From Megalonaias nervosa (taxonomy: Eukaryota > Mollusca > Bivalvia > Unionida > Unionidae): DNA of 64,000 bases. Below are positions 485 to 57,231 of this stretch, piece by piece (position 1 is the first letter of the stretch; each line of letters starts with the position of its first letter). Position numbers and translations under genes: made by a program. The DNA lies in NCBI GenBank assembly GCA_016617855.1, contig JAECUM010004321.1, forward strand, positions 34,238 through 98,237, given 5' to 3'. The notes under the pieces are model-generated. The model was not told the origin of the DNA. It searched no databases and saw nothing but the letters and a program-made list of their open reading frames with translations.

Positions 485-1813
485 TCTCTTTAGTTGGTAT
501 CCAACTATTAAATTTATCGCTGTACCCGCGCCACTTAACGAGACTTTTATAGCCACGCTTTTTTATTACTCGTTGATAAAGAAAACATCTTGTTCAGTCT
601 TCTGCAGCTCTTGTTCGTAAAATCTACCAATTACTGGTTTCCCGGCTAGATCCTTCAGGGCGTACGTTACAGGTATTGTCAGTAAAACTTTATCGATGAC
701 AAATACTTCCTCAGTAAAGTTCGGAGTAAATCCTTTTTCAAATACTTTTTTTTGTTAATGAAATTCGAACTCTATCACCGACTTTAAATTTATGTCTGCG
801 GTACATGTTTTCGTTTGCAAGAATCGGAGTTTAAATCGCATCATTCGGAGACATCCTAGTAGTTCGATGCTTCGTGTTATTGTACTTATCAACAATTTGT
901 GGAAGATCATCAATATATCTATTAGTGTTTTTAGCTGTCAAATGTTTATGTATCAATTCGTTTACTGTACAATTAAATCTTTCAACGCCAACGCTTTTTC
1001 CTTCATTTCCCGTAACATATGTTTTATGTTATTTTGTTCCAAAAACCACTCAAATGTTTCATTAAGAAACTCTGCCCCGTGATCAGTCCAAATTTTATTC
1101 GGTTTTCTTTCTGTACTTGTTATCACTTGTTTTTGTGCGTCAGTTATCGATGTTCCTGTTTTGTCTGTAACAGGTATACTAAACGCGTATTTGCTCAAAA
1201 CATCAATAACGTTAAACAAATACTTTTTGTTATTGTTAAACTGAGCAAGATTTGACATATCAACTAAATCTATCGCCCATGTATCATCAACGGCATTTGC
1301 GACAACCTTACGTGTCGGAAACATTTTTTTAGGTTTGTGTAGTTCTCTTGCCAGATCATCATATAATTCTTTTCCGAGTGTGTCTCTACCGAGACCAAGT
1401 TTATATTTTGTTCCGATTGTTCCCTGCACTAGCCTTCTATCAAATCTCTCTCGCAGATTTGCAGGTTTCATATCTTTAATTTCATCTATCATTATCTTAA
1501 TACAACCATGCTTATCTTGTTCGCTATAACGATAACAGAGGTCGTGACGCATTGCTATTGTATCAACTTGATTATAAGGCTCTTTTCCTGGTAATGGATT
1601 ATCGTTTTCATCTAGTTGTTTATCTAGCGAATTATAAGGTCCGATATATTTATGGCCTGGTAATGTCCAACCTCCTTTTGGTTTCGGTAATTTTGCAATG
1701 AGTTTGTGAATGCCAATGCCGCTGCCAATTACTTCACGATGATTGCAGTATTGACAGTACGTAATTTTATATTGTTCGATGCAAAGATCTTTATCACAAT
1801 CACAATTGCACAT
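468..1813 (-). pseudogene. Phospholipase A2-like domain fused to a retroviral-type integrase (broken)
   Basis: The intact first piece (962-1813, 283 aa) starts with a Cys-rich segment (C2, C4, C6, C11, C20, C23). A parvovirus-type phospholipase A2 domain follows, with a Ca-binding loop (YIGPYN, 56-61) and a catalytic HD pair (residues 90-91, in AMRHDLCY). Then comes a DDE integrase core with Asp182 (WAIDLVDM) and Asp244 (WTDHGAEF). Beyond 962 the same protein continues in other frames. A segment with the expected third acidic residue (VERFN) lies near 940-990. A chromodomain-like tail (VKWRGY) lies near 510-540. I see breaks near 1010, a stop near 836, a slip in an A-run near 745-752, and another near 560. 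This combination is known from Polinton/adintovirus-like elements. The integrase would insert the element; the PLA2 domain in parvoviruses breaches endosomal membranes. This copy cannot make a full enzyme. Confidence 0.85.
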
Positions 1814-1879
1814 TGTTTTATTTTTTAATCGTCGACAAAAATAACTGTCTACACCAGACCCTAAAGTCGATGGAGCTTT

Positions 1880-2026
1880 TTAAGCAAGCAACACACGTTT
1901 CTTTCAACCGCAAACAGCACAGATACCTTTTAACATCGTTTTGTTATTTTTGTTTCTTTCTATTTTTTCATCTTTGTTAATCGTTTTAGTTTTGCATTTG
2001 AGGCAATATGTTGTCGCTTGTGACAT
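1880..2026 (-). pseudogene. Small zinc-ribbon protein (DUF5679-like)
   Basis: A 40-aa frame (1904-2026) has two CxxC knuckles, CLKC at residues 8-11 and CAVC at 36-39. They are separated by a Lys-rich stretch, the layout of the short zinc-ribbon proteins commonly found in Polinton/adintovirus-type elements. A TGA at 1904-1906 directly follows the last knuckle. The same frame stays open for seven more codons, mostly basic, to a TAA at 1880-1882. The true C-terminus therefore looks lost to a point stop. Function in the family is unknown; nucleic-acid binding is an inference. It sits between the protease and the PLA2-integrase gene on the same strand. Confidence 0.6.
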
Positions 2027-2044
2027 TGTTATTATAGTTGATTA

Positions 2045-2478
2045 TCACACAAAATTTATTGCTATGTCATCATTGTTCTTGCTCAGATACCTGCCTAATT
2101 GCAAATTAAACTTTAAAAAATCGGGATCTCTCGACATCTGTCGGATAAACATAATACAATAATAACCACAAGCTGATGTTCCAGTTGGCTGTAGTTGATT
2201 AGATCAGTAATTTATTTTTTTAAATTTTTTAAAACTATATTGTTTTATATGATCACTCGGAGGAAGTCCGAACGATTTAAAATAATTATTGTCGTAAACA
2301 GCAACCCAATGGGTACCGGATCCATCGTTAAAGTTTTGTATATTTACAACACACGAGCCGCCTGCTGATACGTCATCAAGTTCATCTTTGGAAAATATTC
2401 CACGAAATCCGTTTTAAACAACTTTGTCGTCGGATTTTAGTTTTTCGATTATATCAAAATTACTCAACGGCGTCTGGG
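2045..2478 (-). pseudogene. Adenain-like maturation cysteine protease with two stops
   Basis: Reading the minus strand in one frame gives an Ulp1/adenovirus-protease-like protein of about 145 codons. The start region (PLSNFDIIEKL) overlaps the end of the pX-like peptide. The catalytic His is in GTHWVAVYD (codon 2309-2311) and the nucleophile Cys is in SACGYYC (codon 2168-2170). Two in-frame stops break it: TAA at 2414-2416 and TGA at 2204-2206. In adenoviruses and Polintons this enzyme trims capsid and core precursors, often at (M/I/L)xGG sites. The neighbouring capsid genes fit that role. The stops argue for a dead gene. Confidence 0.8.
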
Positions 2479-2559
2479 TCCTGGCAGAGTCTTTCCACGT
2501 CCGATTCCTAACAGATTCAGAATTAGACTGCCTGCAAATCTCGCTAAAAGTGGAGCCAT
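2464..2559 (-). CDS. pX-like basic core peptide
   Basis: A 31-aa frame begins at ATG 2559 and has a short hydrophobic helix followed by a basic tail ending GPRRR. The same frame is open upstream to about 2613 and adds a Lys/Arg-rich segment with a GGF motif. Small basic peptides with a GG-hydrophobic segment are usual in adenovirus-like and adintovirus-like cores (pX/mu). Its stop overlaps the start of the protease gene in another frame. The start codon is uncertain, because the upstream basic part has no ATG before a stop. Confidence 0.5.
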   Translation of the reverse strand: MAPLLARFAGSLILNLLGIGRGKTLPGPRRR

Positions 2560-2574
2560 TGGAATAAATCCTCC

Positions 2575-2737
2575 TTTTTTTGTTTTCCTTGGCGACTTCG
2601 AATTTGTTTTCTTGTTTTATTTTTTGTTTTGTTTGGGTTTTTTTTTGTTTTTTGTTTGTTTTTTTTGGTTGTTGACGATCTTTAAGCTGGCATTTATTCT
2701 TTATTGTTACATAAAACTACGCGTAATAGCCTAGCTA
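2575..2737. other. T-rich low-complexity spacer
   Basis: On the plus strand this spacer is almost all T with scattered G (many TTTTGTTT runs). It lies between the pX-like peptide and the next minus-strand gene. It may be the 5' leader of the pX/protease transcript. No motif is clear. Confidence 0.4.
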
Positions 2738-3160
2738 TCAATGATAGATTTGTTCGATACCGTCTGCAGATACCGCCTTTTTAGTTGCTTCTGATACTGC
2801 CCCTGATGCTGCTGCTAGTCCCAGTGTTCCTAGTACAGGTAAAATTTTTGGTATTGCGCTAGCCACTACAGAAAGTGCTGGTCCAAGAAATCTGCCGTCG
2901 ACCGCATTGCGGTTGGACATCGCTGTTACTTGTGCAACAGATAGTTTAAGAACAAATTGTTTTCCTTTGTGATCTAGTTTGTTGATTTGTTGTGTTGTCA
3001 ACATTACATTTACCGCTGTTTTATTTGCCAACGACGAAGTCATTGAAGTCGTCGGCGATATCATTAAAGAAACAGAATTATGTTTAGCAACTGCTGCTGC
3101 TAATTTTTCAACTTGTCCTGGCGTTAGATATATTTCTTTAGTTTTATATTCGGTTTTCAT
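2738..3160 (-). CDS. Putative minor virion protein with hydrophobic C-terminal segment (140 aa)
   Basis: The frame is intact. The N-terminal two thirds contain three loose repeats of a helix-strand motif (LTPGQVEKL, LTTQQINKL, LSVAQVTAM). Residues about 90-120 form a Gly/Ala/Leu-rich hydrophobic stretch that could insert in a membrane. Proteins of this shape, with a KT.EI.LT..Q start, occur next to the major capsid gene in Polinton/adintovirus-like elements and are taken as minor capsid or membrane-active proteins. It lies 18 bases downstream of the second major-capsid piece on the same strand, so co-transcription is likely. The exact function is unknown. Confidence 0.6.
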   Translation of the reverse strand: MKTEYKTKEIYLTPGQVEKLAAAVAKHNSVSLMISPTTSMTSSLANKTAVNVMLTTQQINKLDHKGKQFVLKLSVAQVTAMSNRNAVDGRFLGPALSVVASAIPKILPVLGTLGLAAASGAVSEATKKAVSADGIEQIYH

Positions 3161-3178
3161 TATATCAAGGGTGTTAGA

Positions 3179-4230
3179 TTAATCTTGTACGGTCATTTTT
3201 CCCTTGACTGCGTCAATTGTAAAAAATCTATCTCTGACAACTAGCGCGTATATATTATACGCTTCAGATGGTTGTACGCCAAGCGTCCAAGTAACTTCAA
3301 TATCAGAAGTTGATTCGATAGCTCGTTCGGGTTGTTTTGAAACGTCGAAGTAAAAGATTGGATAAAGAGAACGAAATTCTTCGACAGATATTTGGCTTCC
3401 ACTATCAACTCGTGGCATCCATAATGCTAATCTTGTAATAGCAAACTGTCCTTCAGCCACTCCAGCGGCGTGCACTATACAATCATTTTGATCCACTCGA
3501 TCTAAAATAAGTGTATGTTTTAGTCCTCGAAAAACTTTGTTGTGATCGCGGCAAAGTCCAAAGATTGTACTTAACGGAAGCATCATTGTTATTTGTCGAG
3601 ATTCTGCGGCAAACGCTTTTCGTTTGGCGTATCCTTCATTATATTGATTCGTCGTATATTTGTGACAGCTAATCGTATTGCATCTCCAATATCACCAGCT
3701 GCATTACCAGCAGGATTTGCGATTAAATTATTGTTATCTGCAGCAGAAGCACCAGCACCAGTGCGGAATTTGCTTGAAATAGCTGTCCCGAATGAGGTAT
3801 CTTTAAACCACATCATGTCTGTGGCAACCGATCTTAAGTAATCATCTCTGAACGAAACAATGTTAAGTATTGTGCTTGCTACAGGTAAGTGCATTGAAAT
3901 ATCTTCCACGGTTTGGTTGGCTAGCTGGTATCGAGCACTTCTAAACAAGCTCCAACTTTTATTGACAAGTGCAATTTCTGCACCAACTGCAATATCACCA
4001 CCAACTACAATTAATATTTGACCACGTACTTCCAGCATCGCCTTAAGTGGCAACAGAAACACGTCTTCGTCACGTGTATTAAAAGTTCTAACACCAGCTT
4101 TATTTGGTTCGTTTGAGTTTTCGTTGAGATACTCTACGTATTCGAATTCTATTACAATATCATCAACATCATGTTCCTCGTCGAGATTATGATAAATTTT
4201 AGCCGACATTATTTTAAAATCGTCACACAA
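3179..4230 (-). pseudogene. Double-jelly-roll major capsid protein, split by a frameshift
   Basis: Two minus-strand frames make one capsid gene. The first (3589-4230, 213 aa) has the N-terminal jelly-roll signature, including LVNKSWSLFRSARYQLANQT and a D-[MW]WFKDT region. The second (3179-3586, 135 aa) has the block LPLSTIFGLCRDHNKVFRG and then WMPRVDSG. Both match conserved parts of the major capsid of Polinton/adintovirus elements (proteins annotated as F54H12.2-like in invertebrates). The second frame is open upstream of its first ATG and overlaps the end of the first, so a single 1-base indel between about 3620 and 3680 explains the split. The last residues of the first piece are therefore out of frame. 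Decay or a sequencing indel are both possible. Confidence 0.8.
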
Positions 4231-4241
4231 AATTGTGACGA

Positions 4242-4604
4242 CTAAAAAGCAGCGGGCGTCATTGGTCTTGTTTTCTTTACAAGTTTGCGTATTACTTCTT
4301 CACCACGCTGTGATAATTTTTTTGTGGTAGCTATCATAGCTCGTTCTGTTTCTTTTCTTGGTGCAATATCTGATATTGCTTGTTTTCTTTCCAATGTTGA
4401 AGGCGACGTTGTCGTGCCTCTAACTTTATCGGCGATTTTTTGTCTGACCTCAGTTCCAACCGCAGTAGCAAAAGATTTACCCGCGTCAAGTGCAATTGGT
4501 GCTACTTTACGCGCTATTCCTGATATATTCTCAGCAATTGTTGTAAACATATTTCCAAAAAATCCGCCTATGATTTTTCTTCTATAAATTTTTCTTCGTC
4601 TCAT
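4242..4604 (-). CDS. pVI-like internal virion protein
   Basis: I start at the inner ATG (4604), which opens a very basic leader (RRRKIYRRK) followed by IIGGF. That is an adenain-type (M/I/L)xGG cleavage consensus, and the new N-terminus would be an amphipathic helix (FGNMFTTIAENI). An upstream ATG at 4682 adds 26 unlikely residues. The remainder is basic and helical, about 120 aa in all. In adenovirus pVI the freed amphipathic helix disrupts the endosome membrane; that role here is an inference. The gene ends 12 bases before the major capsid start on the same strand. Confidence 0.6.
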   Translation of the reverse strand: MRRRKIYRRKIIGGFFGNMFTTIAENISGIARKVAPIALDAGKSFATAVGTEVRQKIADKVRGTTTSPSTLERKQAISDIAPRKETERAMIATTKKLSQRGEEVIRKLVKKTRPMTPAAF

Positions 4605-4711
4605 TGTTATAAAGTATAGGCTACAAAATTGATCGTATCTCTCCACAGCGACTGTGTCGGCGCGCGTAGGTGTAAGTAACACGTGACAATTTCATTGTTA
4701 AGATCTATTTG

Positions 4712-4981
4712 TCACCCAGATTGATCTGTTAGTTGCATTGTTATACTTGTTATTTGATTTTCAAGATTAGTCGAATAGTATATTATTTGTCGAGGAGTAA
4801 TTTGCATTATTGATACCGGAGGAACATCTGGCGAAAAACTGTAAATTGTTTGACTTTGGCTACCTTTGGCTGAGTAAGATCCTAATGCAATAGAGTAATT
4901 GATAAAGATTGTATTTACTTCTGTTATGTTAACGGGTAAATCTTCATCATATGATATACTTTGGTTGCTTGATGATATTAT
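4712..4981 (-). pseudogene. C-terminal part of the minor capsid (penton-type) protein
   Basis: The frame is open for 90 codons without a good start. It carries the conserved last third of the Polinton/adintovirus minor capsid protein: VNTIFINYSIALGSYSAKG, a short YSFSPDVPP motif and the TMQLTDQSG strand. A TGA at 4712-4714 interrupts it, and the frame stays open for about 30 more codons with the expected kind of C-terminus. The N-terminal two thirds of the gene are missing; upstream sequence is directly the end of the ATPase gene. This looks like an internal deletion that joined the two genes. Confidence 0.7.
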
Positions 4982-5016
4982 TCAATAAATTTATCTTTTG
5001 TTACATCACCACATTG

Positions 5017-5553
5017 CTAGCTCGCAATATTTCTCACATCGACATTATCTAACCAGGGAAACAGTATAAAACATCCCGTATTTCGCCGAATAAATCTATC
5101 GACGTTATAAAACCCTTGAGCAAGATAGACCGCATTACATTTTTTATTACGGGATAATGCAAAATAAGACCTAATCTTATTCATCTCCTCCTTGTTTAAA
5201 GGGATATCGTCAAACACAATTATTTTATGTTCGGACGAATCAAGTTCATTTACTGGAACTAAATCTTCTGGTTGTTTGATTAAGAATATATCATCGCCAG
5301 CGCTAAGATCATCGCGAAGTCTGTCGTTATATTCGCTTAATAGCTCGTATTTGTCCTGCTGCGGATTAATTGTATAAATATACACACGATCGTAGTTAAA
5401 GTTGCCATTGAGCAAAAGATTTAATAATAGATTTGTTTTACCAGATCCTGCACGACCAGCAATAAGATAATGGCAGTCTGGAAGTTCGTTGTTGTGTTTA
5501 TGTTTGATTAATCGTTCGGTATCAATATTTAATATCGACGATGGCTTTGCCAT
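5017..5553 (-). CDS. A32/FtsK-type genome-packaging ATPase (C-terminally truncated)
   Basis: The protein of 178 aa has Walker A (GRAGSGKT, residues 33-40), Walker B (IIVFDD, 111-116) and the later YLAQGF motif that follows in this family. The family pumps viral DNA into the capsid. Family members are usually 230-300 aa. The TAG at 5017-5019 cuts it short, and the same frame goes on past it with related-looking sequence to another stop near 4981. The start at 5553 has an A-rich leader. It is divergent from the fibre gene, with only about 40 bases between starts. Confidence 0.85.
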   Translation of the reverse strand: MAKPSSILNIDTERLIKHKHNNELPDCHYLIAGRAGSGKTNLLLNLLLNGNFNYDRVYIYTINPQQDKYELLSEYNDRLRDDLSAGDDIFLIKQPEDLVPVNELDSSEHKIIVFDDIPLNKEEMNKIRSYFALSRNKKCNAVYLAQGFYNVDRFIRRNTGCFILFPWLDNVDVRNIAS

Positions 5554-5594
5554 TGTTGTTGTTGTATAATTTTATGTTATATAATTTACATAAT
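5554..5594. promoter_or_regulatory. Short divergent intergenic region of element 1
   Basis: These 41 AT-rich bases separate the minus-strand ATPase start from the plus-strand fibre start. Promoters for both directions must lie here or inside the neighbouring genes. A TTATATAAT stretch near 5576-5584 is the only TATA-like sequence. Confidence 0.35.
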
Positions 5595-50061: not shown

Positions 50062-50067
50062 GTCGTC

Positions 50068-50453
50068 AGTAGTTAATGGGAATACTATAGCGACACGTAG
50101 ACCATAATATTAAATTTGGGGGGTTGTACCGTGGCAGCAAGGGGAATTTAACATGGGGAAATTTAACATGGGTGGGACTATAGAGCGACAAGGAATTGGG
50201 AATGTATAGCGACAAGGGATTGGGACTGTATAGTGACAATAGGAAAGGAACAGGTGGGGTGATGTTATGGTACTGGAGATTGGTAACAATGTTGCAAGTG
50301 GTTGACCTGAATACGCACGGCTACCACTCTAGGTAGGAACAAATACAGTAGAGACATAGACATACATAACACATATAGACACACATATAGGCAAGAAAGA
50401 AGAGATATCTTTTTGAGACATATGAAGTGGCCCTGAAAATGGCCTTTGGGTTT
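50068..50453 (+). repeat. Left terminal inverted repeat of element 3
   Basis: It pairs with 54479-54870. Shared blocks include GGAATTTAACATGGGGAAAT, GGAATTGGGAATGTATAGCG and GGAGATTGGTAACAATGTTG. GACTATAG/GTATAGCGAC motifs recur several times. The inner end holds stem-loop SL1. Confidence 0.9.
50429..50444 (-). terminator. Histone-like 3' stem-loop SL1
   Basis: The minus strand reads GGCCATTTTCAGGGCC, a 16-base stem-loop that fits the histone consensus (GG-YYY-UHHUH-A-RRR-CC) except for one stem base. CACTTC follows, and a purine-rich element (CAAAAAGA) lies about 15 bases downstream. It would end the minus-strand unit that starts near 51540. Confidence 0.65.
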
Positions 50454-50506
50454 CTTCTTTGTCTTCTAAGTTCTTCTTTTCCTCCACTAACTTCTTATTT
50501 TCTCTC

Positions 50507-50866
50507 TTACACTCTTCTTCTTTTTCTCCTCATCCTTTTCCTCCTCCTGTTTTTCCTTCTCCTCCTCTTTCTGTTTCTTCCTTTTTTCATTCTCCTCTTC
50601 TTTTTCAATTTTTCATTCCATTCTCTCATCCTCTGTTTTACTTCTATATCTTCCTTTTCTTCCTTTTCTATTCTGATCATCTCATTTAAGATCTCCTTCC
50701 CTTTCTTCAAATTGTTGATTTCTATGCTTAGTCTATGAGGACTATAAGCCCCAAGCTGCATTCTAACTAGCATCTCCTCCACCATGCCTAGTGTGTCTAC
50801 TACCTCCTGCAATCTCAGCATCCTCTCCATGTTACTAGCCGTTTTGTATTCTGTGTAGAATGGCAC
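50507..50866 (-). CDS. Element 3 protein with coiled coil and very basic tail (119 aa)
   Basis: Residues 10-85 are predicted helix with heptad-like Leu/Met/Ile spacing (MERMLRLQEVVDTLGMVEEM). The last 35 residues are nearly all Arg and Lys. The tail suggests nucleic-acid binding or nuclear targeting. No family is recognised. Promoter P1 and stem-loop SL1 flank the unit. The frame at 50896-51174 on the same strand may be an earlier part of the same gene in a different phase. Confidence 0.45.
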   Translation of the reverse strand: MPFYTEYKTASNMERMLRLQEVVDTLGMVEEMLVRMQLGAYSPHRLSIEINNLKKGKEILNEMIRIEKEEKEDIEVKQRMREWNEKLKKKRRMKKGRNRKRRRRKNRRRKRMRRKRRRV

Positions 50867-50895
50867 AAATGAATGAACAAAGGGATTTAAGTCAC

Positions 50896-51174
50896 CTATG
50901 CATACTTAGTGCTTTCGCGACTGGTTAATGCCTGAAGGTCAGGCTTCTCAATTGGTCGGGGCTGCGAGATTGCTGCCATCACAGCTCCCTGTTTATTTGC
51001 AATGTCGCACTTTTTATTTATGTCCAGCAGCGGCAAAGGAGGAAAGGAACCAGGAAGGGAGGCGCCAAACGACACAGGAAGGCACGCGCCCAAAACACCA
51101 GGCCATACGTATTTGATCAAATTTAGTCCAGTTGTACTAGTGGACAGCCCTATCTCCAATGACATGTGAGTCAC
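50896..51174 (-). CDS. Possible upstream coding part of the first element 3 unit
   Basis: The frame is open from about 51225 with ATG at 51165. It includes a hydrophobic Gly/Pro-rich part (VWPGVLGACLPVSFGASLPG). Further upstream, near 51400-51530, another frame reads protein-like (TPGWNPGDNKPVLLKDFPRR) but has no ATG and ends in TAA. Together they suggest a longer, broken gene. Not recognised. Confidence 0.3.
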   Translation of the reverse strand: MTHMSLEIGLSTSTTGLNLIKYVWPGVLGACLPVSFGASLPGSFPPLPLLDINKKCDIANKQGAVMAAISQPRPIEKPDLQALTSRESTKYA

Positions 51175-51564
51175 CTGTGTAATTAACCTAATGTAGTTAG
51201 TTTTTAATTTTGTTACGTGTATTTAGGATAGTTGGAATTTTGCGTATGTAGTGTACCTTTGTATTGTCAAAAGAGTACCAATCAGCTGGGTGTCAGCCAT
51301 CCCACAGACGTTAGGGTCATGCAGTGTTTGCGTTAGTCGTTAATTTTGACGGAGAATCCATAGGATCGAATTTGATTTTGGGGATAGAGCTATTATCGAA
51401 AGAGGTCTTCGATAGCCAAAGGAAGACTCTCGTAGAAAAAAAAAGGACCTCTTCGTGGAAAATCTTTTAACAACACTGGCTTGTTGTCTCCAGGATTCCA
51501 CCCAGGTGTTGCTAGTATATTTTCCCTAGCACCTGTTTTTGGGCCCAAATGACGAGCGCAATGA

Positions 51565-51572
51565 TTTATATA
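51565..51572 (-). promoter_or_regulatory. TATA box P1 of element 3
   Basis: TATATAAA on the minus strand, in a context (GTGCT...TATA...CGTCATT) that is repeated at P2. Confidence 0.6.
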
Positions 51573-51636
51573 CTTTAAGCACGGATGTGAACGAAAACAT
51601 CCCTTACACTTACTTCACATATCATATACTATCCGC

Positions 51637-51815
51637 ACAAACGTACGCGAGCGCATAGAACACACCATATCTACTATCCACACAAACGTACGCTAGCGCA
51701 TAAAACACACCAAATATACTATCCACACAAACGTACTTGAACGCATACAAACCCACAATATCTACTTTCCACACAAACGTACGCAAACGCATTCAAACAC
51801 ACACGCACACATACA
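51637..51815. repeat. Four tandem 45-bp repeats upstream of P1
   Basis: ACAAACGTACG-type starts lie at 51637, 51682, 51727 and 51773. Each unit is about 45 bases, with CATA and ACCATATCTACTATCCAC-like ends and a GCGC core in the first two. They sit between SL2 and P1, where an enhancer would lie. Confidence 0.8.
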
Positions 51816-51905
51816 CACATATCAGTAAAGGAGTGAGTGTTTATAGTCACACTTCTTTACACAAATTGGCAACTTGAATAGTGTCTCTTTTCTAGAGATC
51901 TGGTT

Positions 51906-51921
51906 AGCCCTGAGAAGGGCT
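51906..51921 (-). terminator. Histone-like 3' stem-loop SL2
   Basis: The minus strand reads AGCCCTTCTCAGGGCT, a perfect 6-bp stem with a TTCT-C loop. ACCA-type sequence (AACCA) follows, then the purine element AGAAAAGAGA (reverse complement of 51884-51893). That is the full layout of a histone pre-mRNA end (stem-loop plus histone downstream element). It ends the unit starting at P2. Confidence 0.75.
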
Positions 51922-51946
51922 GTTTTAGAACTCCAGTTGCACCTGG

Positions 51947-52433
51947 TTAATGCTGACACCTCCCAGGTCTGGCCCCACAGACACAACGTCTGCTCCAGTC
52001 CTGCTCCCAGTTCAATCTTTCTCTTGGGAGTGCAGAGGGAGGTTGAGTGGCTTCATTATCCCACTCCTCCGTTTGTGGAATAGTGAACACTTCTTGTTCC
52101 CTCTGTCTTCTGTGCCAAACCCGGGGATGATGATCTGGCCTCCTTGCTTCCTCTGCACGATGTACTGCTTGTTGTTGTTGTTGTGGCAATGGTACTGGTT
52201 GTCGTGCTGGTACTGGTTGTGGAAATGTCCTCACCTCAAGCTTCACATCACACACAGGTCTCATTATGAGGTGAGGTAAGATCCCTTTCTTCATTTCCTT
52301 CTCCTCTTCTTCTTCTCCTCCTCTTTTATCCTTGCTTCCTCTGCTATGGCCTCCATAGCCAGCTCGTCTAAAAGACCCTGGCATATTTCAGGTGCATTTG
52401 GAGCTCCAGTAACTTTGCTGTTCTGTTACTCAT
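51947..52433 (-). CDS. Second element 3 unit, coding frames uncertain
   Basis: The first ATG after P2 is 52433 and opens 21 codons (MSNRTAKLLELQMHLKYARV) to TAG at 52368. An overlapping frame continues the helix (LLDELAMEAIAEEARIKEEE) into a basic end. A longer frame (51947-52384, 145 codons) is Gln/Pro-rich. A one-base slip near 52370 would explain the start. I do not recognise the protein. The compact acidic-helix-then-basic pattern resembles the 119-aa protein of unit 1. Confidence 0.4.
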
Positions 52434-52484
52434 CTTCAATGTTGATACGTCAACGATGGGTAGCCAGAATGACGATTGCTGCGC

Positions 52485-52490
52485 TTTATA
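52485..52490 (-). promoter_or_regulatory. TATA box P2 of element 3
   Basis: TATAAA on the minus strand, about 50 bases before the ATG at 52433. Flanking sequence (CGTGCT upstream, CGTCATT downstream) matches P1, so the two promoters are probably duplicates. Confidence 0.65.
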
Positions 52491-52749
52491 TCCCTGGAGC
52501 ACGAACGTGAAGGACAACATCCCCCTGACACAAAAACTTACAATACTACTCTTCTATTACCATCACATGAAACGCGGGGACCTAAACGAAACTCTCAAGT
52601 TGACTTTTTTACATACAAAAGCAGACACACACTGTCGGACAAGACAGAGAATCGAAGTGCTTATAGACACACTTCTATTTTTTTAACATACAAACACACA
52701 AATTTCTTTTGCCAACTGAATTAATATGTCTTTTCTAGAGTGTTGGGGT

Positions 52750-52765
52750 AGCCCTGAAAAGGGCT
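52750..52765 (-). terminator. Histone-like 3' stem-loop SL3
   Basis: The minus strand reads AGCCCTTTTCAGGGCT, a perfect stem with the usual TTTTC-A loop of histone mRNAs. ACCCCA follows, and CTAGAAAAGACA lies about 15 bases further on. The downstream element is nearly the same as at SL2. Confidence 0.8.
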
Positions 52766-52795
52766 GTTGTGTTGACGAGAAGTGATAGAAATCTT

Positions 52796-53041
52796 TTATT
52801 GTCTAAGAGTGCGTCCCCGTCTGGTGGCAGGCTTTCCTACAGGATAGGGCCTGCTTCTTCGGAAAGAGAAGGAGAACTCCTTGGTGTCTACTCGACAGTC
52901 AACAAAACCTCTGTCTGGTTCCTGTTGCTGCTGTTGTTGCTGTTGCTGTTCTCTCTCCTGCTTCTCTGTCCACTCTTCTTGTTCATTCTTGATTTCTTCT
53001 CTGAAGAGTTCTTCTATCAGGCCTTGGGCTATTGTTAACAT
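52796..53041 (-). CDS. Third element 3 unit, distal exon-like frame (81 aa)
   Basis: The frame has an acidic helix (GLIEELFREEIKNEQEEWTE), a run of nine Gln and a basic tail (RRSRPYPVGKPATRRGRTLR). A strong splice acceptor (TTTCTCTTGTCAG, 53043-53055) directly precedes the ATG, and another lies at 53078. It may therefore be the second exon of the unit beginning at 53989. It ends 31 bases before SL3. Confidence 0.45.
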   Translation of the reverse strand: MLTIAQGLIEELFREEIKNEQEEWTEKQEREQQQQQQQQQEPDRGFVDCRVDTKEFSFSFRRSRPYPVGKPATRRGRTLRQ

Positions 53042-53059
53042 CCTGACAAGAGAAAGGAC

Positions 53060-53340
53060 ATTGATCTTTAGACTGTCCTAAGAAACAACAGGAGCAGGAG
53101 GAGGAAGAAGAAGAGGTGCCCTCAGCAAAAGAAGAACTCCGACATGTCCAGAGAGAGAAGACAGAAAAGAAAAGACGAGGAAAAAGTGAGGAAGAAGAGG
53201 AGGAAAAACCTGTGAAAGTGAAAAAATTATTAAAAAAAAACAGAGAGAGTGAACACAAAAAGATACAGAAGAAGTCTATGAACTTTTCAAAAGTGTTGTG
53301 TTGTGACATTGGATTGTAAAATTTGTACCAGAACAGACCA
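53060..53340 (+). other. Charged plus-strand frame or intron
   Basis: A plus-strand frame of about 85 codons (to 53319) is extremely Glu/Lys-rich. On the minus strand the same region is pyrimidine-rich and could simply be the end of an intron. I favour the intron. Confidence 0.3.
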
Positions 53341-53692
53341 GACAGGAAAAACGTAAGTGTCTCTTGGTTTTGATTTTTTAAATGATAAAGGACCTACACG
53401 TACATCATGGGTAAAAAAGGGATTTTGAGTTTTAATTGATTTTGGCAAAATGAATAATAACTCTTTCGAGTGTGGTGACCGGGTTGGGCTGTTTGGCTCG
53501 GGAAGGCCTTTTACTCTTGGGTCATAATAAAGAAGTCTGATACATTTGTTTCAGACTCCTTAACTCTGCCAAAATGTCCAAGAGTAACGTTACCGTTTGA
53601 GTTTCACTGTTCTCCTTCTCTCCTAGACTTTGTTTCTTCTCTGCTGCTTCTTCTTTCTGTCATTTCCTTCTTACCTCTTCTTCTTCTCACTG
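53341..53692. other. Element 3 interior without clear gene
   Basis: A GAG|GTAAGA splice donor on the minus strand lies at 53674, about 20 bases after the stop of the 98-aa frame. Otherwise this part is probably intron. Confidence 0.35.
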
Positions 53693-53989
53693 TTACTGTT
53701 GAAGATGAAAAGCTTGTTCTGCTTCTTTCTGCTGCTGTAAAAATTTCTCCAATTCTTCTTTCTGTCTTTGTTTAACATCCTCGATCTGTGGTATAGAAAG
53801 AGAAGGTGGCGAAGGTGCTGGTACCGGAACAAATTGTTGCGAAGAAGAGAGAAAATCCACTAAATCCCAATTGAAATCGACCTCTTCTGGAAGTAGGTCT
53901 GCGCTGACTGTGGTAACCGCTGCTATGCCATCGCTTCTCGTCACTACGGCCGGTGCTCCCCAATTCATTGTCTTCTTTGTTTCCGTCAT
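53693..53989 (-). CDS. Third element 3 unit, first frame: Gln/Pro-rich protein (98 aa)
   Basis: It starts at ATG 53989, about 50 bases after the TATA box P3. The N-terminal half is neutral and acidic (DLLPEEVDFNWDLVDFL, reminiscent of an acidic activation segment). A Pro/Ser linker (VPAPSPPSLSIP) and a Gln-rich helix (RQKEELEKFLQQQKEAEQAF) follow. It could be a small regulatory protein. No family is recognised. Confidence 0.5.
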   Translation of the reverse strand: MTETKKTMNWGAPAVVTRSDGIAAVTTVSADLLPEEVDFNWDLVDFLSSSQQFVPVPAPSPPSLSIPQIEDVKQRQKEELEKFLQQQKEAEQAFHLQQ

Positions 53990-54041
53990 GTTTCAAAAAA
54001 AAAAATGTCACATCGATTCACTGTGCACAGACACTAGCGCA

Positions 54042-54180
54042 CCTATATAGGGAATGTGACGTCACAGGTAGCTCTCTTCGGATTGGAAGATAGACTCCGC
54101 GCAGTGGCTGAATTTTGTAACGCGTGTTTGGATTGGTGAACAATCTCAGTCCGTTTCGATCCGCTCTTCCACTATAAATA
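54042..54180. promoter_or_regulatory. Divergent promoter of element 3
   Basis: Two TATA boxes face away from each other: TATATAGG on the minus strand (54042-54049, P3) and TATAAATA on the plus strand (54173-54180, P4). Between them lie a CRE palindrome TGACGTCA (54057-54064) and inverted CCAAT boxes (ATTGG at 54082 and 54132). This resembles divergent histone gene promoters and many small DNA-virus early promoters. Confidence 0.7.
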
Positions 54181-54222
54181 AACGCGGTTCACTTCATTCC
54201 CTTCACCTGTTCTCATCACAAG

Positions 54223-54441
54223 ATGTGGACAAACGCTGAATCCTCTACTCTCGTATCGTCGATGCTGTTCCGTACGGACTTATCCATGTATGTCAAATCA
54301 TCATGGACCATCATCCGGATCACCGATACGACTGTTTGGAAAAGAACGATCTATGTGGAGAGACAAGGCTGTCTGAAGCGCGTCCTCTTCTACGGAGCAG
54401 AGGTTAGACGAAGTTTGAGAAAGAGAAAAATACCTATGTGA
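54223..54441 (+). CDS. Fourth element 3 unit: 72-aa basic protein
   Basis: The first ATG after P4, in good context (AAGATGTGG), opens a 72-codon frame. It is Ser/Thr-rich at the start and ends with a basic tail (EVRRSLRKRKIPM). No family is recognised. Stem-loop SL4 lies 46 bases after the stop, inside the right inverted repeat. Confidence 0.5.
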   Translation: MWTNAESSTLVSSMLFRTDLSMYVKSSWTIIRITDTTVWKRTIYVERQGCLKRVLFYGAEVRRSLRKRKIPM

Positions 54442-54478
54442 TGCCCTCTATGTTAACGGAATGGTGTTAACATAAAAC

Positions 54479-54870
54479 AAACCCAAAGGCCTTTTTCAGG
54501 GCCACTTTATATGTCTGGAAAAGATATCTCTTCTTTCTTGCCTATATGTGTGTCTGTATGTGTTATATATGTCTATGTCTCTACTGTATTTGTCCCTACC
54601 TAGAGTGGTAGCGGTATTCAGGTCAACCACTTGCAACATTGTTACCAATCTCCAGTACCGTGACGTTTCCCGACCTGTTCCTTTCCAATTGTTACTATAC
54701 AGTCAGAATCCCTTGTCGCTATACATTCCCAATTCCTTGTCACTCTATAGTCCAACCCATATCAAATTTCCCCATGTTAAATTCCCCTTGTAGCCACGGC
54801 ACAACCTCCCCCCCCCACCGCATATTTAACATTATAGTCTCATGTCGCTATAGTATCCCCATTAACTACT
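54479..54870 (-). repeat. Right terminal inverted repeat of element 3
   Basis: Inverse copy of 50068-50453. It has an expanded C-run (about 54807-54817) and a few small indels. Its inner end holds stem-loop SL4. Confidence 0.9.
54488..54503 (+). terminator. Histone-like 3' stem-loop SL4
   Basis: GGCCTTTTTCAGGGCC fits the metazoan histone stem-loop consensus at every position, including the GG...CC outer pairs and the loop A. ACTTTA follows, then the purine-rich CTGGAAAAGATAT (about 54515-54527) where U7 snRNP would bind. Confidence 0.8.
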
Positions 54871-54876
54871 GTCTTC

Positions 54877-55699: not shown

Positions 55700-57231
55700 T
55701 TATTTTCTCATAGCCTGCTTTTGGTCCTAAATGAAAATGATTCCACATGGACATCCAATAAGATCACAAATGTCACCATCTTGAAAATTATATTATTGCT
55801 ACTACATCTGAATTAATGCTTATATCAACATGGAGTTTCACTGAAAGACTTCTTATGATGTCTAGTTGGTCCTAAAATGTGGATTATCTATTCATCATAG
55901 TGGCCATATTGAAAGTCTTGCTATTGATACTCCTCCTGAGTCGATGGTCATGTTGGTTTTCGCTGAAAAACTTCTTATGAAATCTAGTTGATCCTAAATG
56001 TAAATGTGGCTCTTCTGATATTCAATATTGCCACTACTGTGGCCATCTCGAAAACCTTATTATCACTAAAACTCCTGAAAAGAACGTCATTTTGCAGTTG
56101 TTTTTTTTTCACCAGAAGACTTTGCATATCTAGTTGGTCCAAAACAAAAATAATGCTGAGCTGATGTTCACTGTGGCCACCACAGTGGCTATCTTGGAAA
56201 CCTTATTGCTACTCCTCCTTAGTGGATGGTCAAACTAAATTGGGATTATCATTTAAAGACTTAGTATGACATCTAGTTGGTTCTAAATGCAAATATGGCT
56301 GTTTTGATGTTTTCAAACCATTGTTATTCCTTTTCCTGAATACAAAGTCATATTGCTATGAGGCTTCATTAGATGACTTCTCATGATGTTTGGTTGGAGT
56401 TGAATAAAACTGCTGCTTATCTAATGTGAAATATTGACCAGTGTGACCAGCTTGAAAACCTTGTTCTTACTCCTCTTGGTCATTTCAACATAGGGTTTTC
56501 ACTGAACGATTTCTATCAGTTCTTAGTTGGTCTTAAATGAAAATGGTACGAATCGGATGTCCAGTATGTCTACCACAGTGAACATCTTGAAAATCTAATG
56601 AAAAGTAATTTTACCATGGGGTTTTCACCATAAGATCTATGATTTATAGTTGGTCCAATATGAAAATGGCGTGATCTGATGTCCTATATGGCCACCAAAT
56701 GGCCATCTTGAAACTATTGTTATCACTACTCCACCTGAACGAGTTTCTTTTCGATATGGGTATTTACTAAACAATGTCTTTATGCTGCCATTCAGAAATT
56801 CAATCTGCCTAAATGTAGAAATCAGCATTGGCTTGTTACTGAAAGACTTCTTATGGTGTCAAGTTGGTTGTAAATGAAAATTGTGTTGATCCAAATTCTA
56901 TTATGACTTCCACAATGGCCATCTTGAAAAGTTAGTTATCACTGCTTCTCCCAGATGACTGGTCATTTTTACATTATGTTATCATCAAAATAATTTTTAT
57001 GATTTCTAGTTGGTACTAAATATAAATGGAGCCAATCTTTTATTGAATATGGCCACTGTGGCATCCATCATGTAAATCTTGTTATTTTTACAACTACAAA
57101 ATGAAAGTCATATCAACATGGGCTTTCCACCAGAAGATTTATGATGCCTTGCTGGTCCTAAATGAAAATGTTGCCAAGCTGACATCCAATATGGTCACCA
57201 CTGCGACAAATTTGAAAATATTGTTATTGCT
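55700..57231 (+). repeat. Satellite-like repeat R3, block 3
   Basis: About eleven units of 120-150 bases each have TAGTTGGTCCTAAATGAAAA, a GGCCACCA...GTGGCCATCTTGAAA segment, ATTGTTATT and a GGTTTTCACT...GACTTCTTATGA end. Blocks 1 and 2 have the same unit order and direction. Confidence 0.7.

Follow-up and report, generated by a model that had tools for sequence, protein, structure and literature searches.

A Maverick/Polinton lineage of Megalonaias nervosa carries histone-type mRNA 3′-end signals on its small end genes

The RNA hairpin found at the gene ends of the element described here is of the type that animals otherwise use for histone messages. To our knowledge, accounts of the histone stem-loop/U7 pathway commonly present it as a route used by replication-dependent histones only, and we know of no mobile element described as entering it. 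The element's genes share with animal replication-dependent histone genes, as represented by the passages on Hydractinia histones compared here (PMC5011920), a 16-nt stem-loop, a purine-rich downstream element, TATA boxes and short 3′ UTRs, but their products are non-histone and they lie in a mobile element. Mavericks carry the terminal motif (AGT)2//(ACT)2 according to the vertebrate Maverick paper (PMC8097293), in whose main text "histone" and "stem-loop" have 0 occurrences. The family of our element agrees with Maverick/Polinton in its AGT-type ends, 6-bp target duplication, rve integrase and A32 P-loop match, with a weak PolB match besides; it differs in the histone-type 3′ ends on its small end genes and in a BIR-domain gene, whose protein is encoded by other copies of the family. 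The window, that is, the whole stretch of 64,000 nt analysed on contig JAECUM010004321.1, also holds another Polinton (domain matches at 962-5571), which is comparable in its rve integrase with a PLA2-like domain, its DJR-like domain and its A32 match, but gives no match to the histone 3′ stem-loop family RF00032 at E ≤ 10.

The element (Table 1) belongs to a family repeated in the 2.19-Gb genome, which, judged by its ends, target duplication and domain matches, is Maverick/Polinton, a group of adintovirus-like elements. One copy, C15464:1185-17315, measures 16,131 bp, with a perfect 6-bp target duplication (AATACT/AATACT); it ends in AGTAAT..ACTACT and the window copy in AGTAGT..ACTACT, these being the only two copies in which both ends were read. 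A retroviral-type integrase was recognized in L029, the one copy scanned (PF00665, E 1.6e-13), and is absent from the window copy. In L039, an A32-type ATPase was matched at 27.8 bits (PF04665, cut-off 22.8; best stretch only 26/242 positions) and PolB weakly by an ORF fragment (PF03175, 21.4 bits, below the cut-off of 25.8); the ORF of another copy, L035, had no PF04665 match. Some ORFs in other copies are presumably capsid-like; they matched no Pfam family, and the one tried against PDB found no match. No relatives of the element were detected in the viral and prokaryote contigs scanned, the "phages" being without a DNA match. The original prediction of a mobile element was borne out, but it overlooked that this copy, by comparison with its relatives, derives by deletion from a ~16-kb Maverick, its end genes remaining and its core gone. 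A description as a coreless element of 4.8 kb was abandoned, since relatives show the core.

Table 1. Features of the element in the window
Feature	Position	Strand	Remarks
Element, internally deleted Maverick/Polinton, 4.8 kb	50068-54870		ends AGTAGT...ACTACT
Left target-site duplication GTCGTC	50062..50067		5/6 match with right
Right target-site duplication GTCTTC	54871..54876		
Left terminal inverted repeat (TIR)	50068..50462	+	~88% identical to right TIR
Right terminal inverted repeat	54470..54870	-	
Breakpoint	53033..53048		~11.85 kb of core missing relative to copy C6482
Site of missing ~180 nt with gene B stem-loop	53466..53470		present in relatives
Gene A	54223..54441	+	72 aa; without known domain; 2 protein-database homologues
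Gene B ORF	53693..53989	-	98 aa; earlier end here than in some relatives
Gene C ORF	50507..50866	-	119 aa, very basic; stops 62 nt before its stem-loop
Gene D ORF	51947..52384	-	145 aa; stops 25 nt before its stem-loop; frame probably disturbed
Gene E ORF	52796..53041	-	81 aa; stops 30 nt before its stem-loop
Gene A histone-type stem-loop	54488-54503	+	in right TIR; RF00032 30.0 bits
Gene C histone-type stem-loop	50429-50444	-	in left TIR; RF00032 29.3 bits
Gene D histone-type stem-loop	51906-51921	-	loop UCUC; RF00032 24.3 bits
Gene E histone-type stem-loop	52750-52765	-	RF00032 27.9 bits
Gene A downstream element core AAAAGA	54519..54524	+	
Gene C downstream element core AAAAGA	50408..50413	-	
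Gene D downstream element core AAAAGA	51886..51891	-	
Gene E downstream element core AAAAGA	52729..52734	-	
Gene A TATA box TATAAATAA	54173..54181	+	kept in 18/21 rows
Gene B TATA box	54044..54049	-	TATATA kept in 17/21 rows
TGACGTCA between divergent genes A and B	54057..54064		kept in 20/21 rows
Two ATTGG (inverted CCAAT) boxes, starts 54082 and 54132	54082..54136		each kept in 19/21 rows
Gene D TATA box	52485..52490	-	
Gene C TATA box	51565..51572	-	

The RF00032 scan suggested with the original prediction recovered its four stem-loops, all in their places, as the only hits of the 64-kb window at E ≤ 10 (E 0.00015 to 0.02), but every one of them scores under the gathering score of 34, so that a default search lists none. 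The set of four was right but took no account of a fifth stem-loop, that of gene B, which the window copy lacks. A strict pattern with 6/6 pairs was seen three times, always inside the element, where dinucleotide shuffling predicts 0.025 occurrences per shuffled window (40 shuffles, maximum 1), and a looser pattern with 5/6 pairs again returned those three, with 0.65 expected per shuffle and a maximum of 5. The gene C stem-loop has one broken pair and matches neither pattern. Because the stem-loops at 50429 and 54488 are copies of one another within the terminal repeats, and those of genes D and E have flanks ~78% identical over 60 nt, the four are not independent; pair shuffles on these sites were not significant (86/500).

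The same signals recur in the relatives. RF00032 gave 14 matches at or above the gathering score in 11 of the 20 (11 at gene A and 3 at gene B); in their 142 kb, every other Rfam family stayed below its cut-off. Model R1, which was built partly from sites that it scored (3 A sites and 4 B sites), finds the gene A site in 20/20 relatives and the gene B site in 17/20; the C, D and E sites are found in one left locus each (C in L035, D in L037), and the core stretches examined gave no match. A chance origin of the stem-loops would draw on the loose pattern, which shuffled windows yield often enough, but it is contradicted by the excess of the strict pattern within the element and by the whole-window E-values, and the recurrence of the model match in every relative refutes it, leaving it a practically negligible probability.

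All six pairs are intact in 16/21 rows for gene A, in 7/17 for gene B and, in the gene E region aligned with 17 relatives, in 15/18; the copies are mostly decayed, so that likeness among them partly reflects recent descent. Within 14 chosen sequences, 82/84 cells are paired, and the outer pair has changed on both sides, being G-C in 9 and A-U in 4. Inherited variants occupy 1/48 stem-loop columns, with pairing retained, and 18/170 flank columns; the depletion in stems alone is not significant (p 0.08). Loss of the stems in related copies had been named as evidence against the original prediction; this check did not contradict it, although many decayed copies have one or more broken pairs, and a both-sided change, of the compensatory kind proposed as a check, was seen in the outer pair. 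These data bear on the possibility of an inherited relic: a single past capture of a gene fragment with its histone 3′ end, since copied along with the element and of no present use. Such a history would fit the duplicate nature of the two TIR stem-loops and of those of D and E, the abundance of decayed copies and the non-significant depletion of stem variants, but it sits poorly with a signal carried by five genes despite diverged flanks, with the both-sided pair change, and with the constraint on the coding sequence of gene B, a gene that a stem-loop follows (codon-position contrast, p 0.002; not significant for gene A, p 0.11). We regard a relic as quite improbable.

The purine element expected 3′ of each stem is present as AAAAGA at 4/4 window sites, starting 15 nt (D) or 16 nt (A, C and E) after the stem, with a chance per site of 0.0005-0.02 under shuffled composition. 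It lies 11-21 nt past the stem in 19/21 (A), 15/17 (B) and 14/18 (E) aligned rows, and stem-loop and downstream element occur together in all five genes (A-E). In addition, the strand of each stem-loop matches that of the gene ending just upstream. A DNA or RNA hairpin with some other job (packaging, termination or replication), resembling a histone stem-loop by chance, might be expected from the position of two stem-loops within the terminal repeats; this strand agreement, the histone spacing of the purine element and the matches above the curated family's cut-off in relatives all speak against it and make it very improbable.

The reading that we prefer, with a probability of roughly 0.78, is that the end genes of this Maverick lineage are expressed by way of the host SLBP/U7 histone mRNA machinery, giving short unpolyadenylated S-phase mRNAs. 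Genes A to E, the small genes at the two ends of the element, would be made as mRNAs ending in a host-type histone stem-loop, which host SLBP would bind. The downstream element with its AAAAGA core (predicted target TCGAAAAGA), ~15 nt downstream of the stem, would be the pairing site of U7 snRNP; cleavage between the two would leave short unpolyadenylated mRNAs that would build up in S phase, to the benefit of the element's own DNA synthesis. The promoter boxes kept in most copies and the coding constraint on gene B also speak for this reading. The sequences themselves show the signals, their spacing, their recurrence in relatives and the identity of the family; from the arrangement of these signals we infer SLBP/U7 use, S-phase expression and an early or regulatory role of the end genes.

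Genes A, B, C and D each have a TATA-like box upstream. Near the 3′ ends of genes A, C and D, the sense strand (50067-54871) has neither AATAAA nor ATTAAA, and an AATAAA overlaps the stop codon of gene E. The latter, together with the statement in a passage of PMC9756948 that some histone mRNAs can take either 3′ end, favours an alternative in which the stem-loops bind SLBP, yet the mRNAs are mainly polyadenylated and the hairpin has a role in export, translation or storage. This alternative appears unlikely given the lack of such signals at A, C and D and the presence, beside the stem in all five genes, of a downstream element that serves U7 cleavage. With less assurance we lean towards a two-class programme, in which the end genes would be expressed in S phase only and unpolyadenylated via SLBP/U7, perhaps at histone locus bodies, and the core genes would take another 3′ end. 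No polyadenylation signal occurs within 150 nt past ten core ORF ends, but those ORFs are broken. Core transcripts might read through to the gene E stem-loop, so that limitation of the histone-type end to the end genes is not proven.

If true, such use of the pathway would make this the first mobile element known to us to enter histone mRNA processing, and finding all parts of the signal on five non-histone genes of a repeated element would mean that selfish DNA can use the pathway. The arrangement suggests that the element borrows the timing of host DNA replication; a virus-like DNA element would then be bound to S phase through RNA processing and not through transcription alone. The family would also provide many natural variants for probing the sequence tolerance of SLBP and U7.

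As predicted, the products are non-histone: no Pfam histone match was obtained for the ORFs scanned. Pfam and PDB searches with genes A and B returned chance-level matches only, the predicted structure of gene A had a mean pLDDT of 49 and a best fold-search E of 0.26, and a protein search through the TIR frame gave no match. A gene model joining B to E by splicing, with a donor at about 53675 and an acceptor at about 53077, was dropped, as relatives show B's own stem-loop. Shuffle comparisons support a likeness of genes D and E in both protein (1/2000) and DNA (5/500). Likeness to gene C was weaker (B, 18/1000; D, 47/1000; E, 44/2000, with the remaining pairs in that last comparison weaker still), so that gene C is only a candidate relative of the other end genes.

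Genes A to E are small non-histone genes at the ends of a Maverick/Polinton element whose window copy is internally deleted to 4.8 kb. The four histone-type stem-loops of the original prediction were confirmed at their places in this copy, and they are the only matches at E<=10 in the 64-kb window to RF00032, the Rfam histone 3' stem-loop family (30.0, 29.3, 27.9 and 24.3 bits). An RF00032 search of the window at the gathering score returned no match, because the cut-off is 34. A strict stem-loop pattern identified three sites in the window, all within the element, with 0.025 expected per dinucleotide shuffle (40 shuffles); a looser pattern identified the same three, with 0.65 expected per shuffle and 5 in the largest. 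Each stem lies on the same strand as its ORF, 25-62 nt past the ORF end, and the purine-rich element predicted after each stem was present in 4/4, its AAAAGA core starting 15-16 nt past the stem. The four sites are not independent of one another, because two lie in terminal repeats and the flanks of D and E are shared; pair shuffles with these sites alone were not significant (86/500).

Coordinates of the stem-loops, the element and neighbouring or related features
Feature	Sequence	Position	Strand	Description
Element (window copy)	window	50068-54870		ends AGTAGT / ACTACT
Stem-loop C	window	50429	-	
Stem-loop D	window	51906	-	
Stem-loop E	window	52750	-	
Stem-loop A	window	54488	+	
Tandem repeat	window	51624-51804		45-nt unit, four copies, between genes C and D
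Deletion breakpoint	window	53033-53048		
Different Polinton	window	962-5571		
Degenerate repeats	window	55715-56951		directly right of element; families of 38-80 nt
Element with both ends read	C15464	1185-17315		16,131 bp
BIR domain protein	L037	2-910		
Extra weak model match	L011	4546-4595	opposite to gene B stem-loop	30.7 bits, adjoining gene B stem-loop

At the gathering score, 14 RF00032 matches at 11 loci were found in 20 relatives from the same host genome, and no other Rfam family matched there. A stem-loop model built from 14 regions, which include three gene A and four gene B sites from these relatives, matched at the gene A site in 20/20 relatives and at the gene B site, which falls within the ~180 nt missing from the window copy, in 17/20; the three without a B match (L009, L012 and L021) end before that site. 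In the left stretches the model matched three sites and no others: E in L034, C in L035 and D in L037. Stem-loops C and D were observed in a single relative apiece. Across the 14 chosen sequences, 82/84 cells are paired and the outermost pair is G-C in nine and A-U in four. When every row is counted, all six pairs are intact in 16/21 (A), 7/17 (B) and 15/18 (E), and AAAAGA lies 11-21 nt past the stem in 19/21, 15/17 and 14/18 rows, respectively; decay of the stem-loops is plain, most of all in B. Inherited variants (present in at least three rows, those in exactly two being excluded) numbered one per 48 columns in the stem-loops, with U-G and C-G there, both pairing, versus 18 per 170 in the flanks, a contrast not significant alone (p 0.08). 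Singletons were similar (23 in 48 stem-loop columns, 93 in 170 flank columns).

The animal histone 3' end, as described in PMC5011920 and PMC9756948, comprises a stem-loop for SLBP and a purine element for U7, and both are matched in the Maverick genes. At the sequence level, the Maverick gene ends are the animal histone 3' end, signal for signal. The mRNAs of genes A to E would be cut between stem-loop and purine element, would carry no poly(A) and would peak in S phase. An element that has a polymerase of its own could profit from this kind of programme, in which A to E may act early. In the openly licensed literature, no paper was retrieved on histone stem-loops together with transposable elements, and none of the titles and abstract openings listed for viruses with SLBP and for related topics describes such an arrangement, a scope that gives no proof of novelty.

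Genes A and B are divergent and share one promoter, in which TATAAATAA is conserved in 18/21 rows, the gene B TATATA in 17/21, TGACGTCA in 20/21 and each of two ATTGG boxes in 19/21. The promoters of genes C and D are 75% alike over 56 nt, and both have TATA boxes. A database of 5.8 billion proteins contains two homologues of gene A, at 75% and 77% identity, and a single homologue of gene B, at 68%. These unnamed proteins (P0001, P0002 and P0003) come from public-source contigs of 387-1455 bases; the P0001 and P0002 translations extend into the promoter region, so that this part of it must also occur beyond the copies compared here. Substitutions at codon positions 1, 2 and 3 numbered 6, 13 and 23 (inherited) and 77, 75 and 64 (singletons) in gene B, and 7, 2 and 15 (inherited) and 23, 25 and 36 (singletons) in gene A; the contrast between third and other positions was significant for gene B (p 0.002) and not for gene A (p 0.11).

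At least 40 scored copies each of the gene A and gene E regions are present in the host genome, among 5431 and 1980 first-look candidates, respectively. We compared 20 relatives, 12 left stretches (10 with element sequence; L038 and L040 without), one end and 16 short gene E ends; one further fetched stretch had no element sequence. The relatives are 84-94% identical (mean 88.5, 190 pairs) and are therefore probably old copies, and several have broken frames. Their homology to the window ends near 53033, beyond which their own sequence continues, and the left stretches match the C, D and E parts; in copy C6482, about 11.85 kb separates the two halves that are joined in the window copy. At the breakpoint, the halves overlap by 16 bases in matches to relatives, a possible microhomology in which the letters of the two relatives are only partly alike. 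The window copy has GTCGTC/GTCTTC on its two sides, and the C15464 copy AATACT on either side; the end motif and 6-bp target duplication are the same as those given for vertebrate Mavericks in PMC8097293. Among the genes of other copies are one for an rve integrase (E 1.6e-13) and one for a protein with a BIR domain of the inhibitor-of-apoptosis type (E 5.1e-20). An A32 ATPase match in one copy covers the P-loop part only (27.8 bits versus a cut-off of 22.8), and the ORF of a second copy gave no such match. The PolB match in other copies is weak (21.4 bits, below the cut-off of 25.8), and Pfam and PDB searches showed no capsid protein.

The different Polinton elsewhere in the window, without an RF00032 match at E<=10, combines rve and a PLA2-like domain in one ORF and has a DJR-like domain and an A32 match. 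The degenerate repeats beside the element are perhaps a decayed satellite.
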